Shown here: positions 9,536 through 30,422 of the stretch, one piece after another | Layout of the letters: the number at the start of each line of letters is the position of its first letter | Position numbering within the stretch: the stretch's first letter is position 1 | Assembly (NCBI GenBank): GCA_946415545.1 | Contig: CAMKSY010000005.1 | Coordinates: 1-37,535 of the forward strand | Source of the DNA: an uncultured Pelosinus sp. | GTDB lineage: Bacteria > Bacillota > Negativicutes > DSM-13327 | Reading direction: 5' to 3' | Length of the DNA stretch: 37,535 nucleotides | Program-made: the position numbers and the translations under genes | Notes under the pieces: generated by a model | The model's database searches: none | What the model was told of the DNA's origin: nothing | What the model saw: only the letters and a program-made list of their open reading frames with translations

Positions 9536-10150
9536 ATGACCATGATGTTAGAAGCAAAGGGGATATCTTTCGGTTACAAAAAAGGTATAAATATACTCGA
9601 TCAGTTTCAGATTAGGATAGAAAGTCATGAACGAGTCGGTATTGTCGCACCCAGCGGTTTTGGAAAAACTACGCTGTGCCAAATTTTATCAGGCTATATA
9701 AAGCCTGCAAGTGGACAGGTGCTCCTAGACGGAGAAGATCTTCACAGAATCCAAGGCTATTGCCCGGTACAGATGATTTGGCAGCATCCGGAGAAAGCGG
9801 TTAATCCAAGACTGCGCATGAAATCCATAATTGAGGAAGGCGATCAAATCGAGGAGCGAATTATAGATGGATTGGGGATTGAACGAGATTGGCTTAATCG
9901 TTTTCCTGGGGAATTATCTGGAGGGGAGATGCAGCGTTTTTGTATTGCCAGAGCGTTGGGCAAGCGGACAAAGTTTCTCATTGCTGACGAAATCAGCACA
10001 ATGCTTGATCTAATAACCCAAAGTCAAATATGGAACTTCCTGTTAGCTGAAGTAACGGAAAGAAAGATTGGACTGATTGTTGTAACTCACAGCCATTCCT
10101 TAATGGAGCGCATTGCTACGCGGCAAGTAGTATTAGATACCCGAATATGA
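9536..10150 (+). CDS. ABC transporter ATP-binding protein, DppF/NikE type
   Basis: Walker A APSGFGKTT, signature LSGGEMQR, Walker B FLIADEIS; GAGGGAGGG upstream of ATG at 9536. Confidence 0.8.
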   Translation: MTMMLEAKGISFGYKKGINILDQFQIRIESHERVGIVAPSGFGKTTLCQILSGYIKPASGQVLLDGEDLHRIQGYCPVQMIWQHPEKAVNPRLRMKSIIEEGDQIEERIIDGLGIERDWLNRFPGELSGGEMQRFCIARALGKRTKFLIADEISTMLDLITQSQIWNFLLAEVTERKIGLIVVTHSHSLMERIATRQVVLDTRI

Positions 10151-10442
10151 TGTGCTACAATAGCGTGAGCCTTTCTTGTTGTCAATTGCTTACAGCCGCC
10201 AGATCCTGGTTTACTCATCAGGCTAACTTCCTTTGATTGATTAATGTGTATAGAATTTCCCTATGATGGAAGAATAAATACTATATTGGCAAACAATATG
10301 GGAACTGCTGAATACTAACAAACTAGCAATTAATTTTATGGCGTGATCGGGCGCTCCTAAGTCGATTCTTAATTAGCTCTGGCCATAATTCTCGCCCTGT
10401 GATTGCCTGAAAGCATTCCCGTCGAATAGGAAAGCGTGTAGA

Positions 10443-11225
10443 ATGACTAAAAAAAAACAGCACGAATTAATTAAAAACTTACGCCGTCCGAAGGGAATCG
10501 TGAGTCCGATGGCTATAAATTTCATCCACCTTAGAACGCCGTGGGTGATAGCCTGGTGGTCAGCTTCATATCTTGGCTATGCCTATATGAGTCTGGGAAA
10601 TTATGTAAAAGGATTTATTTTAATATTCCTGGAAGTTTTTATAAATGTCAATTCTAAAATCAATTTAGGGATACTTTATAGTTTCACAGGGCGCTTTGAG
10701 ATGGCAAAACAGGTAGTAGATACCAATTGGCTGCTCCTTTATATACCGATATATATCTATTCCATTTGGGGAGGATACGGGCTTGCTGTTGACCTAAATA
10801 AATATTCCATTCTCGCTGATAGGGAAAATTCCAGCATGATACCCTTTAAGATCAGTAATTGGGAAATTGCCTTCTTAGATAAGCGGAAGCCCTGGATGGC
10901 GATAGCTTTGTCCCTTTTAATTCCAGGCCTGGGACATTTATACGCTCATAAAATCCCCACCAGTTTTTATACGCTGGCCTGGTGGACTTTCATCGCTTAC
11001 AAGGGAGAACTTCTTCCATGCATTCATCTTACTGCAATGGGTGACTTTGCTGGCGTGGCCATGGCAGCTGATCCTTTATGGCTGATGTTTCTGCCTTCCA
11101 TTTACGTGTTTGCAATTTATGATTCTTACGTAAATACAGTAGAGTGTAATAGATTGTTCGAGCAAGAACAGAAGCGATTCTTAAGTGACAACTATCAAAG
11201 TGGGAATTTTCCAGTACCAGAATAA
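10443..11225 (+). CDS. Unknown integral membrane protein, paralog A
   Basis: 260 aa; strong full-length similarity to 11761..12555 (RRPKGIVS, AFLDKRKPWMA..PGLGHLYAHKIPTSFY, YDSYVNTVE). Confidence 0.8.
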   Translation: MTKKKQHELIKNLRRPKGIVSPMAINFIHLRTPWVIAWWSASYLGYAYMSLGNYVKGFILIFLEVFINVNSKINLGILYSFTGRFEMAKQVVDTNWLLLYIPIYIYSIWGGYGLAVDLNKYSILADRENSSMIPFKISNWEIAFLDKRKPWMAIALSLLIPGLGHLYAHKIPTSFYTLAWWTFIAYKGELLPCIHLTAMGDFAGVAMAADPLWLMFLPSIYVFAIYDSYVNTVECNRLFEQEQKRFLSDNYQSGNFPVPE

Positions 11226-11243
11226 ATATAAGGTGGGTTCTAA

Positions 11244-11780
11244 TTGTACGTTTACGCGTCTTTTGACTATTCGGCTTTCCTTGAATTGGCCATAACCGAT
11301 CTGGAAAAGCGCGGGATCGCCAGAGAACATATCTTGGCAGTTACTTTGGACAAAAGGGTTGAGGAAAGAATGGTCCTGGATACCATTCATCGGGCAGATG
11401 GAATGAGCTTATTTGATGGAGCCATGGTTCTGGGGGCAATACTCATGGAGCTAGGCGTTATATATGGCTTTATTTTAGAGTGGGGGCCGATTATCTGGGG
11501 ATTGATAGGACTACTGAGCGGAGCAATTATCGGCTTCCTGCTTGATTACTTTTATGGAAGGATATTCGGGAACAAGAAGACAAAATCACCCCGCAACCGT
11601 GTCGAAGCCGGGGAATGCAATAACACAGAAGTAGTATTGACTGTTTACTGTAACAACAGTCAATACGAAATGGTAGAGAAAGTGCTATGGGACAATATGG
11701 CCTTTGGAGTAGGCAAGTTGGATCGGCTCCGTAATACGTCAGGAAATGGGGCGACAAGTGATGGAAAAGAAACAAATTGA
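11244..11780 (+). CDS. Unknown protein with central glycine-rich transmembrane segment
   Basis: TTG start with RBS-like AAGGTGGG; hydrophobic core GPIIWGLIGLLSGAIIGFLLDYFYG between two soluble segments; overlaps the following gene. Confidence 0.7.
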   Translation: MYVYASFDYSAFLELAITDLEKRGIAREHILAVTLDKRVEERMVLDTIHRADGMSLFDGAMVLGAILMELGVIYGFILEWGPIIWGLIGLLSGAIIGFLLDYFYGRIFGNKKTKSPRNRVEAGECNNTEVVLTVYCNNSQYEMVEKVLWDNMAFGVGKLDRLRNTSGNGATSDGKETN

Positions 11781-12555
11781 GTCCATAAGAAATCAACGCC
11801 GTCCTAAAGGAATTGTGAGCGAGCTCACTGTTAATCTGCTTCACCTAAAAAACCCTTGGATAACAGCTTTCTGGTCAGCAATATTCCCGGGATTAGGATT
11901 CCTGATCATGGGGAGTTATATAAAAGGGTTTCTGTTAATTATCGGGGCGACCATCGCAAATTCTATGGGACATATTAACCAGGCAATTATCTATGGGCTT
12001 ACTGGTCAAGCAGAATTGGCTAAACAGATTCTTGATACCAGGTGGCTGCTTTTTTATGCTCCTTTGCAGATTTTTGCTACTTGGAGCAGCTACCATCTTA
12101 CTGCTGATTTAAACAAATATGCAATTCTTGCCGCACGAGAAGGTTCGGGAATTATTCCTTTTAAAATTGGTACATGGGACATAGGATTCCTCGACAAACG
12201 AAATCCCTGGGTGGCAGTAGCCTGGTCCCTTCTCATGCCTGGTCTGGGCCATCTTTATAGCCACCGAATCCCTACCAGTTTTTATTTGCTGACCTGGTGG
12301 ATCGGCATGTCATATATGGCTCATCTCCTTCCGGCCATTCATCAGACATTTCTGGGAAATTTTTCTGAGGCTATTGCCACTATCAGGCAGGAATGGTTCT
12401 TGTATCTGGTAGCAATTTATCCCTATTCTGTCTATGATGCCTATGTTAATACGGTTGAGTATAATATACTTTTTGACCAGGAACAGAGCCAGTTCCTCAT
12501 TGATAATTATCAAAATTGTAAGTTTCCTATGCCCGCAATGGATAACAGGCATTAG
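11761..12555 (+). CDS. Unknown integral membrane protein, paralog B
   Basis: Paralog of 10443..11225; probable ATG at 11761 (MEKKQIESIRNQRRPKGIVS). Confidence 0.8.
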   Translation: MEKKQIESIRNQRRPKGIVSELTVNLLHLKNPWITAFWSAIFPGLGFLIMGSYIKGFLLIIGATIANSMGHINQAIIYGLTGQAELAKQILDTRWLLFYAPLQIFATWSSYHLTADLNKYAILAAREGSGIIPFKIGTWDIGFLDKRNPWVAVAWSLLMPGLGHLYSHRIPTSFYLLTWWIGMSYMAHLLPAIHQTFLGNFSEAIATIRQEWFLYLVAIYPYSVYDAYVNTVEYNILFDQEQSQFLIDNYQNCKFPMPAMDNRH

Positions 12556-12760
12556 AAAAGAAGCTGCTCTTAAACTACAATTGGTAGATTTATGAGTAGC
12601 TTCTCTTTAGGTTGAAGCAGGATTTAGCATTTATAAAGAGAAGCTACCATAATAAATTAGTTAATGTATGGGAAGCTTCTCTTTTCGTGACATAGCGAAA
12701 GAAAGAGAATAAGAAAGTATCGGTTTGGAATGGGACAAGGGGCCTGTCCCCATGTTCCAC
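12556..12760 (+). repeat. Composite intergenic hairpin element, copy 1 (two AGAAG...CTTCT hairpins plus GGGACA module)
   Basis: aagaagctgctc...gagtagcttctcttt; aaagagaagctaccata...tatgggaagcttctcttt; tggaatgggacaaggggcctgtccccatgttcca. Confidence 0.65.
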
Positions 12761-14158: not shown

Positions 14159-14866
14159 TTAGTTTGGTTTGCTGTTAACATGGAAAGGGGAGATAGATAC
14201 TTGCCGATTGTCGTCCACAGTGGCAAAAAAGACGGCTTTAAAGGTATCAATTCCCTGGTTTTTTAATTGCCCATAAAGCCAATCCTCTGATAGCTGGAGG
14301 TCATGTAATACCTGCTGTAATACCCTGCCTTCCATAATTACCGGATAGGAAATTCCACTGCTTGGTTTTGTGATGCTTAAATCCTGAAGATTTACCGGCG
14401 CCAGTTCCGGTTTTTTATAAACTGATAATCGTCCGTTTGCTTCGATTAGTGCGATGCTGACCTCTGTTATATTAAAAATCCCATATTCTCTTAATAACTC
14501 TAAAATATTTTCCAGTGAATACTTTATTTTCCTGATGTTCTTTACAATTAAATTTCCGTCTTTTATTACAACGATTGGATCAAACGTTGTTAACCCTTTA
14601 AATGTCTGATTTCGGATTACAAGTTCCGCGAAAAGCTTTTGCAGAATTCCAATTACTACAACCGCAAAGGCAATATAGAAATGGTTGATTTCAGGCTCGG
14701 CAATGTCTGCACCTACTACAGAACCTAGGGTGATAATGATCAAGTAGTCGAAAACAGGCAGTTCTCCGACGGATCGTCTACCCATAAATAAGGTTACGAT
14801 TAGCATCAGTGGCAAAATTGTAAAGATCCGTACAGCTATTTTGAATAAATCAGATGCAATTTCCAT
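14159..14866 (-). CDS. DUF421 (YetF-like) membrane protein
   Basis: N-terminal transmembrane region with MGRRSVGELPVFDYLIIITLGSVVGADI; C-terminal YPVIMEGRVLQQVL typical of DUF421. Confidence 0.8.
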   Translation of the reverse strand: MEIASDLFKIAVRIFTILPLMLIVTLFMGRRSVGELPVFDYLIIITLGSVVGADIAEPEINHFYIAFAVVVIGILQKLFAELVIRNQTFKGLTTFDPIVVIKDGNLIVKNIRKIKYSLENILELLREYGIFNITEVSIALIEANGRLSVYKKPELAPVNLQDLSITKPSSGISYPVIMEGRVLQQVLHDLQLSEDWLYGQLKNQGIDTFKAVFFATVDDNRQVSISPFHVNSKPN

Positions 14867-16625: not shown

Positions 16626-18230
16626 CTAGGATGGGGGTTTAATCTTCATGTAATTATAAAGCCTTTTTTGTTTTTCAGTAATTTCGCTTAAGTAATAGCA
16701 CTTTCCGGATTGATGATAATACTCAATGCCATCCAACTCATCAAGCAATCCTTTTATTGTATAGTTTTTAAAAAGACCATTATCGTCCATAGCTTTCTTT
16801 ATGTAGGAAAGATAAATGAGAGCCACAAACTGGACGAACAGCTTGTCTTCCAAATTTTCCTCAGGAGCTGCCGGCATGCGGCACATGCTCAACCGCTCAT
16901 TGAGATTCCCAAAAGCCTCTTCAATGAGATCTTTCGTGCGGTACATTTTTAACGCTGCAGCAGGATCTTTTATTACATTCGACAACAGAACAAAGAAACC
17001 ATAACTCTTTTCCACTTGATGGATTGCATCCTGCTTTGGAATGATTTTTCGGCCACGCACCGGAGTTTCCAGAACATCATAATATCTTTGGTAAAGCTTT
17101 TCGTGCTCAGGCTTTTCTCTCCCGCTGAGAAGTTCTTCTTCTAGAGTATCAAGGAGCTGATTGAACTGTTTTTTGTCATCTGTGGCAATCTGGTCATTAT
17201 AGTAATAGTGAACGTAAATTCTTCTTTTATCGATAATCACTTCTCCGGTTCTCGGCTTTATTTCCTTGTAGTCCCACTCTTGGGTAAAGCTTCTGATATA
17301 GAGCTGGTTCTCGGAATTATAGTGTTGTCGGGAAACAAAACCATCTCTGATTTCATTCAGTTTATTGCGAATCAGCTTCAGCGATATTTTTCCACCTATA
17401 AGAAACTTATGATGTTTCCGAAAGAGTTCGTTAATGTTTGCTTCGCTATAAAAACCGCGGTCCATTACCAGATTCAACTTTTCCGTCTTTAGGATGTCGA
17501 TATCCTTGACCAGATTTTCAGCGGTCTTTACATCCGTAATGTTATCAGCAACTCTTTGGTAATATACGGGAAGACATGACGATTTTCCGTATAACAGAGA
17601 AAGGTTAAGTTGAGACGGACATTCATGCTCCTTGTTGCTGTTCGACTTAACCTGGTTTAGGCTTTGGGAATAGGAGGAGATAGAGGGGCTGTCATAGACC
17701 AGATATTCCTGCTCAAGTCTTCGATTGGACTGGAGTGCAAAGAACTTCATCTTCTGCTCTTCCAGTATGCGTCCAAAAAGCTTAGTGCTGCGTTTCGATG
17801 GCATGTCAAATCGAAAGGGGTGAACATGCGTAACCGCCCATTTGTGAAATCGGTAAATGGAAGTATTCTCTTCGAGCACCAAGAAATAAGCCAGTGATAG
17901 TATTTCTTTATAATCTGCCGGAAAACATTGCTTCAAATCTTCTATGATGCCTGTAGTTTGGCCGATGGCATCGAGAAGATACATTGCACCGTAAAACAGT
18001 CTTTTGCATTCGGCTGCTGGTACCGGTTCAGGCTTTGCTTCTGCTTCTGCGGTAGCATGCTCAAGCTGTTGCTGAAGTGTATATTTCTTATTTGGCACAA
18101 ATAGTCCCTTGACGTTTTTGCCGATATAATTGCGCTTTTGTTCAGAACGTTTTTTAGCAGAATTCCAAATCGAAATGTACTCGTAAACATATTCCGTGCC
18201 ATTAATATTTTGTGTACCTCGGACAGGCAT
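16626..18230 (-). mobile_element. IS1634-family-like DDE transposase
   Basis: MDRGFYSEANI, SYGFFVLLSN, MYRTKDLIEEAFGNLNERL signatures; terminal inverted repeats not identified. Confidence 0.8.
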
Positions 18231-28755: not shown

Positions 28756-29715
28756 TTAGTCGATAATAGGAATCGGCGGACGGTCTTTGCCGCGCTCGGT
28801 ATAGTTGCTTTCAATGGTATCTTGCACGTGCTGAACAAATATATCTTGGATCATAGTATTCTCGCCTAATCCTTGAATATAGGCTTCTACCTTAAATCCT
28901 TCCTGAATGAGCTTGGTTTTTGCAGAATCTTCTTCGTCGCCGCCTATATCATTATTCGCGTGATCTCCAGCGACCAGCATCAGCGGCATTAAGATGACGT
29001 TCTTAATTTTTTGTTCTTTTAGCTTTACTATAACAGATTCTAGGGAAGGGTAACCCTCTCCGTCAACGGTATTTATAAAGACATTTTTAGCACCAGCATC
29101 TTTGAATCTGGCTTGCAGCGCAGCATAAGCTGCATTAGCAGGATGCACACCGCCATGACCGATAAGGACAACGGCATCATTGCGACCCAGTTTGGGGAAT
29201 TGGCTCTGCAGGGCTTTAATAGCGGTTAAGTAATCGTCCGGCCGTTCTTCCTGACCGGAAAAATAAATCAGTGGTCGTCCCAATACGATTCTGTCAAAAG
29301 ATTTGTTTTGGGCATAAACATCAACTGTACGGCGTACTTTATCATATTCATCACCGGCTACCATATGGAGCGGCTGTACAATGACTTCGCTATAACCTTC
29401 AGCCTTCAGCTTATCTAAAGCCTGTTTCTCCGTATCGATTTTTAGTCCTTCGTTTTCAGCGATACGTTTGAGAATGATGCGGGAAGTAAAGGCACGGCGG
29501 ACTTCATAATCTGGGAAGGAAGACTTGATCTTGTTCTCTACGCTTTCAATATTCAGTGTACGAGCATCCTGAAATGTAGTACCGAAGCTGACTACCAGGA
29601 TGGCTTTTTTCCCGGTTGTAATTTCTGCTGCATATGTTTTTGATTCGTAAGAAAACATACCTAAACAGACTGCAAATAAAAATGTTGTCATTAATAACCA
29701 AATGCTTTTTTTCAT
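28756..29715 (-). CDS. cbiK: Sirohydrochlorin cobaltochelatase CbiK with N-terminal signal peptide
   Basis: MKKSIWLLMTTFLFAVCLGMFSYESKTYA signal-like N-terminus; KAILVVSFGTTFQDAR, EVIVQPLHMVAGDEYDK, GHGGVHPANAAY, LMPLMLVAGDHANNDI. Confidence 0.9.
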   Translation of the reverse strand: MKKSIWLLMTTFLFAVCLGMFSYESKTYAAEITTGKKAILVVSFGTTFQDARTLNIESVENKIKSSFPDYEVRRAFTSRIILKRIAENEGLKIDTEKQALDKLKAEGYSEVIVQPLHMVAGDEYDKVRRTVDVYAQNKSFDRIVLGRPLIYFSGQEERPDDYLTAIKALQSQFPKLGRNDAVVLIGHGGVHPANAAYAALQARFKDAGAKNVFINTVDGEGYPSLESVIVKLKEQKIKNVILMPLMLVAGDHANNDIGGDEEDSAKTKLIQEGFKVEAYIQGLGENTMIQDIFVQHVQDTIESNYTERGKDRPPIPIID

Positions 29716-29963: not shown

Positions 29964-29999
29964 AATTCCCTTCCCATCGCTCGTGGGTTAAACGGTAAT

Positions 30000-30163
30000 T
30001 AACGATAGGCAGTTCTTCTGGCTTTGGATCATTACTTAGCCAAACCTTCCCAGGATTTGTATCCCAGTGGTATTCTATGGCTTCGCTCCCCACTACAGTG
30101 GCGGGACCGCGTCGGCTTTAACCGACTTCTCTGTTAGGCCCTTTCGGGCACCTATCTAACTAT
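30000..30163 (-). promoter_or_regulatory. Cobalamin (B12) riboswitch upstream of cbiK
   Basis: Minus strand shows ataggtgcccgaaagggcctaa...agaagtcggttaaagccgacgcggtcccgccactgtagtggggagc...ccactgggatac...cctgggaagg...aagccagaagaactgcctatcg, i.e. B12-box and core elements in the right order. Confidence 0.9.
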
Positions 30164-30422
30164 ATGCAATTATAATAGTTCAACCAATCTTAAAAGACGG
30201 TTTAAAATGCAAAAAGTTCACTAATATTAAAAAAAATAATAAAAGGCGTATAAGGAGAGGTTTAGGCTGATATGGACACAAGAACGTGGAGAGTGATACA
30301 ATCAGATCATAAAGGAAATATGCCTTAGCCTCATTAATTGTGTATGACTTGTTCTTCCGTCTCCGCGATTCCTTAGAGAACGTATCCTGAACCTATGAAT
30401 TTACTAAAAAGAGGTATTTTTT

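Follow-up and report, generated by a model that had tools for sequence, protein, structure and literature searches.

A three-gene Pelosinus locus as the local form of an unnamed, widespread two-protein membrane complex of endospore-formers, probably made in the forespore

What do three closely packed genes for membrane proteins of no evident family encode in an uncultured Pelosinus sp., and do their products belong together? We addressed this for a locus within a 37,535-nucleotide stretch of DNA (the window; contig CAMKSY010000005.1 of assembly GCA_946415545.1), which a preliminary description had presented as two full-length paralogs bracketing a third protein in what might be a hetero-oligomeric membrane complex. 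We refer to the three genes and their products as A, M and B, and the features discussed here are as follows (positions are those of the window).

10248..10277, + strand: candidate sigma-F-type promoter GTATAG-N14-GGAAGAATAA, 165 nt 5' of A, moderate score
10443..11225, + strand: A, polytopic membrane protein of 260 aa, the first paralog
about 10518–10838 and 10860–11207, + strand: tandem repeats of A, each with an NPW...PGxG(H/Q)LY-type element
11244..11780, + strand: M, membrane protein of 178 aa with a TTG start
about 11247–11348, 11409–11579 and 11628–11720: segments of M (beta-alpha-beta, Gly-rich TM hairpin and beta-alpha-beta, respectively)
11761..12555, + strand: B, 264 aa, second paralog of A and a lineage-specific duplicate

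Judging from the comparative sequence evidence, we consider the coding status of A, M and B to be beyond doubt, since the same proteins are found in the same order across the Bacilli, Clostridia and Negativicutes. The TTG start of M at 11244 is preceded by an AAGGTGG ribosome-binding site, an alternative in-frame ATG start is possible for B at 11746, and the junctions are as tight as first described, with an intergenic gap of 18 nt between A and M and an overlap of 20 nt between M and B. Minus-strand open reading frames within the locus (11527–11844 and 12310–12552) were discarded as shadow frames. We note that the sequence GAAAG(C/T)GTGT lies immediately 5' of the A start in the window (10429–10441) and in loci L008, L010 and L014, and that it has been kept among the Sporomusaceae despite divergence of the remainder of the leader; it may be a translation signal or some other element. 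Inverted repeats read by eye 3' of B (12556–12690; gaagctgctct / gagtagcttctc, then gagaagctacc / gggaagcttctctttt) are probably terminators.

The paralogy proposed for A and B held over their full length, with every motif cited for it present and 53% identity over 257 aligned residues without gaps (E=8e-107). Each of these proteins also contains an internal tandem duplication, and the halves of A align with a probability of 99.8 (E=8e-28). M was found to have the soluble N- and C-terminal parts flanking a Gly-rich hairpin that had been seen at the outset, as well as a conserved loop (D-T-I-H-R-x-D-G-x-S-x-x-D) ahead of the TM hairpin.

None of the three proteins matched a Pfam or NCBIfam model above the model's own cut-off, the A and M profiles found no convincing PDB relative by sequence, no phage homologs were found, and the literature searched, which covers part of the journals, contained no account of A or M. 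The early opinion that no characterised family is involved agrees with this, and the HMM match to a well-characterised family which might have overturned it did not appear in the Pfam and NCBIfam searches. Weak matches in these searches (A to TPR, and M to SpoVAB, VTT and RnfD) were judged to be spurious or confined to glycine-rich helices; that between M and SpoVAB (PF13782) scored 18.7 bits against a cut-off of 25 and was restricted to the glycine-rich hairpin region, and no spoVA genes were adjacent to A–M. A, B and a group of half-length relatives described below also match, below threshold, the PGxGxLY element of DUF6677 and DUF5683, which are TM2-like membrane proteins (B scored 23.6 bits against a cut-off of 24.3 for DUF6677 and 19.7 against 26.7 for DUF5683, and the L115 protein 25.0 against 26.7 for DUF5683). 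A and B differ from both families in having two PGxGxLY repeats and long additional helices, and they miss both cut-offs.

We then compared 84 loci from plasmid and genome scans. The best genome-scan match was Pelosinus fermentans UBA6563 (87%), and the window lies in a 3.9-Mb genome assembly of the Sporomusaceae. In 73 of the loci M lies immediately 3' of A, at a median distance of 3 nt, and in a further seven both share a single reading frame as a fusion, so that the two are adjacent or fused in 80/84. Of the four exceptions, two are trivial, namely one locus that stops at a contig border (L041) and one in which A is split across two frames with M still adjoining (L062); the others are two Priestia plasmid loci in which A has no adjoining M (L002 and L003). 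The fusions occur in Paenibacillus, Niallia, Brevibacillus, Ruminiclostridium and Clostridium, and also in Negativicutes genomes. Conversely, of the 42 strong M matches (E below 1e-25) in 161 Negativicutes genomes, every one either adjoins an A match or is contained in it; in one case that A is truncated. The preliminary description had allowed that homologs might occur solely as unlinked single genes, and this is not what we found, as A and M are near-universally adjacent.

The position of B is different. An A–M–A' layout was seen in the Sporomusaceae and in one Syntrophomonadaceae genome (L008, L009, L010, L014 and the window), an A–A–M layout in Alicyclobacillus and Gracilibacillus (L051, L053 and L054), and two A–M units facing each other in L012. 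In a phylogenetic tree the copies in first and in third position of the A–M–A' layout each form one clade (support 100/100), which shows that B arose through one old duplication. The conserved order first imagined for all three genes is therefore retained in part: A and M are linked in relatives, but the third gene is a lineage-specific paralog. Half-length relatives of about 160 aa are also found in spore-formers (L007 at 9696–10160, L101, L127, L128, L136, L141 and L142), each consisting of one A repeat plus an M-like glycine-rich TM hairpin without the ferredoxin-like halves, and no clear promoter motif was seen for them; from their sequences, we read these as a second trace of the A–M association. 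It should also be noted that L025 (JAGGRA010000010.1), which bears the label Pseudomonas sp. ISL-84, has an A–M unit nested among those of the Bacillaceae, and this genome is probably mislabelled or contaminated.

An AlphaFold model of the fused L068 protein (mean pLDDT 89, pTM 0.85; four rows of the alignment were natural fusions and the remainder unpaired) predicts A and M as a single body. Linkage, gene fusion and modelling together make an A–M complex very likely, and we regard it as well supported that A and M form a membrane complex. The hetero-oligomeric complex originally suggested thus stands for A and M, on the basis of adjacency, natural fusions and the single-body model, but not for A–M–B as a conserved unit. 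When M was modelled alone, it was predicted to be a beta-alpha-beta unit, a hairpin and a second beta-alpha-beta unit, and the top Foldseek neighbours were ActD subunits of Alternative Complex III (8k9e_D with probability 0.99 and E=1.3e-3; also 6lod_D and 6btm_D). PII proteins formed a second group of neighbours with E near 1, sharing the common ferredoxin-like fold. A fold search with the fused model gave useful probability solely for the PII-like domain of M, and found no solved relative of A.

M shares with ActD (PF11821) the order beta-alpha-beta, two TM helices, beta-alpha-beta, with both termini on one side; in ActD these termini form a cytoplasmic sheet (PMC5928083). ActD packs against a polytopic partner (PMC5928083) and, from our models, M is predicted to do likewise. 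However, M has no PF11821 match at E<=1 and is found in a spore-former distribution, whereas ActD is reported to be exclusive to ACIII (PMC5928083), and the Act cluster (ActA, ActB, ActC, ActE and ActF) is absent from the window and from the recurrent A–M neighbours. The M profile also reached YflT-domain stress proteins over near full length (E about 1e-6 to 1e-7). These proteins (PF11181) have the same beta-alpha-beta, Gly-rich hairpin and beta-alpha-beta arrangement, but M has no PF11181 match and is tied to A, whereas the YflT-domain genes we found were solitary, between dut-like and dapB-like genes. These genes, from Negativicutes (L197 at 1450–2229, + strand, and L200 at 1706–2383, - strand), encode proteins with a long N-terminal stretch of low complexity, whose matches are weak to the M profile and just under the cut-off to the ActD model. 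Given the ActD fold neighbours, the YflT profile match and the YflT proteins that touch the ActD model, M is ActD/YflT-like in architecture, yet it belongs to neither family by any curated test. The view that M falls in no characterised family survives in that no curated family matches, but has to be qualified by this shared architecture.

A restriction to spore-formers had been raised as a possibility for the locus, and our survey bears this out in the Negativicutes, a class in which sporulation has been lost repeatedly. Full-length A was found in 25/52 SpoIVA-positive but in only 1/109 SpoIVA-negative genomes (Fisher p=8e-14, ignoring shared ancestry), with the positive genomes spread over nine families as grouped by the survey tool and the single exception, G005, being an 83% complete genome. 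In a phylum-wide sample of 300 genomes, all 15 clear A carriers were SpoIVA-positive, as were 83% of the sample, and SASP genes were present in all 25 A–M genomes examined. Within the spore-formers, A–M units are patchy, often multi-copy and sometimes plasmid-borne.

De novo analysis of the regions 5' of A in 72 non-redundant loci found a spaced motif, GNATAA-N14/15-GGAAANNTA (consensus GNATAA-N14/15-GGAAA(A/C)TA), whose end mostly lies 25–45 nt ahead of the A start and which has a good match at only about half of the loci. In four-fold held-out scoring the motif told these regions apart from 432 further upstream sequences taken from those loci (p=2.5e-12), while random control sets taken through the same procedure gave p=0.12–0.77. 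GNATA–GG pairs at spacings of 14, 15 and 16 occurred in 10, 14 and 11 of the 72 loci, compared with 0–6 at other spacings and a flat profile in controls, and the motif also scored above controls in A loci from a separate search (p=9e-6, a few of them repeating loci of the training set). Promoters for sigma-F and sigma-G are alike, and those for sigma-F retain a G upstream of the -10 (PMC3789822). The motif also has this G, and it is supported computationally as a sigma-F type promoter with the layout of forespore promoters. Strict sigma-F, G, E and K consensus patterns were not enriched 5' of A, since the -10 core begins with A or G rather than C. In several SASP genes of the genomes concerned, a similar -35 occurs in the same register but with CACATNCTA; the motif matrix performed no better than background on SASP genes and did not match spoIIR, a sigma-F gene, which indicates that it is not a generic forespore detector. 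Together, the distribution and the promoter motif make a forespore role for A–M likely.

In the window, the motif fails within the nearest 130 nt upstream of A (score -1.0), and the candidate at 10248..10277 keeps its position in the close relatives L008, L088 and L089 and matches a strong site in Anaerospora (L014). The window's own site is a weak, distal sigma-F candidate, and we count this against the forespore reading.

Other genes recur beside A–M to a limited extent. A CBO0543-family gene (NF041644), unrelated in sequence to A and M, lies directly 3' of M on the same strand in 22/84 loci (including L004, L016, L023, L035 and L054), making it a frequent third gene of the A–M operon. Genomes with A–M have 1–13 copies of the family, and the 14 control genomes, among them that of B. 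subtilis, have none. CBO0543 is an uncharacterised, expanded family of A–M-bearing spore-formers, named in one paper of the literature searched; standalone copies showed no convincing promoter enrichment (4/19 vs 49/432). Ger-type receptor genes were found in seven A–M loci and DUF3231 genes also in seven, and no text linking DUF3231 with the spore was found in the literature searched. Linkage to Ger and CBO0543 genes is partial among loci, and there is none in the window, where the neighbours include an oligopeptide/nickel-type ABC transporter, a nitroreductase, an SDR-like gene (by our own reading) and, 1.6 kb downstream of B, a gene for a YetF-like DUF421 membrane protein (14159–14866, - strand); none of these are recurrent A–M neighbours elsewhere. 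The DUF421 family includes the spore inner-membrane proteins 2Duf and YetF. Further along the window are a gene matching a DDE transposase domain (16626–18230, - strand) and an ordinary cobalamin riboswitch (29991–30168, - strand) upstream of a CbiK cobalt chelatase gene (28756–29715, - strand).

We conclude that the three genes are the local form of an unnamed membrane complex of two proteins that is widespread in endospore-formers, and think it reasonably probable that A–M, with B where present, is a forespore-made complex, most likely of the spore inner membrane, which affects spore properties. A and M, with the duplicate B added in this lineage, would be produced by the forespore in the course of endospore formation and most likely placed in the spore inner membrane. 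A and B, as duplicated PGxGxLY proteins, would provide the membrane-embedded body, and M a regulatory or coupling subunit whose split ferredoxin/PII-like domain would lie at the core-facing (inner) surface of the membrane, with the TM hairpin fixing it to A in the manner of ActD on ActC. Both termini lying on one side, the basic residues after the hairpin and the analogy with ActD suggest that M most likely has its soluble halves turned towards the inside of the forespore. The complex may then tune a spore property such as inner-membrane permeability, resistance or germination, and we suggest tuning rather than building of the spore because the units are unevenly distributed, often multi-copy, sometimes on plasmids and often accompanied by a CBO0543-family gene.

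The main alternative, which overlaps this but takes transport as primary, is that A is a forespore-membrane transporter or channel gated by a PII-like M binding a nucleotide or metabolite, much as GlnK gates AmtB, and carrying a solute across that membrane in one direction or the other. Although the rank of PII proteins among the structural neighbours of M and its tie to a polytopic membrane protein fit such a role, we think it unlikely, as A matches no transporter family or fold, the PII matches extend only to a common fold, and a nucleotide-binding T-loop motif was not identified in M. A general envelope-stress or starvation complex, expressed vegetatively and confined by chance to sporulating lineages, seems quite improbable: the M profile does reach YflT-domain stress proteins, and sigma-B and sigma-F are related sigma factors, but the literal sigma-B pattern occurs in 0/72 upstream regions, the motif has A rather than T at the third position of the -35 and the fourth of the -10, and it is difficult to account for the absence of A from 108/109 SpoIVA-negative Negativicutes genomes unless sporulation is involved. 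Mere co-transcription of A, M and B without a complex is less probable still, as the Priestia plasmid loci which would favour it are set against independent-looking fusions in several genera and the Negativicutes, the lack of any strong M match without A in the Negativicutes genomes, and the high-confidence joint model.

Returning to the forespore complex, a bolder and distinctly tentative extension is that A–M, with CBO0543, is an unrecognised and partly mobile sigma-F-regulon module of many Bacillota, with an ActD/PII-like sensor that adjusts dormancy, resistance or germination. Its role would then be comparable to that of spoVA2mob, though the proteins are unrelated. According to PMC10126465, PMC5133452 and PMC12548441, spoVA2mob, 2Duf/YetF and GerA-type proteins are accessory, unevenly distributed spore-membrane proteins that alter resistance or germination; some A–M units are similarly plasmid-borne and some are near Ger genes, but there is no sequence relation.

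Spore inner-membrane proteins govern permeability, heat resistance and germination, and what is understood of them comes mostly from a few model species. A–M points to a spore component that has apparently gone unstudied, and as a conserved forespore-type complex found in Bacilli, Clostridia and the diderm Negativicutes but lying outside the curated families, it would be a missing part of the spore, whose uneven distribution makes it a candidate cause of strain differences in spore behaviour.
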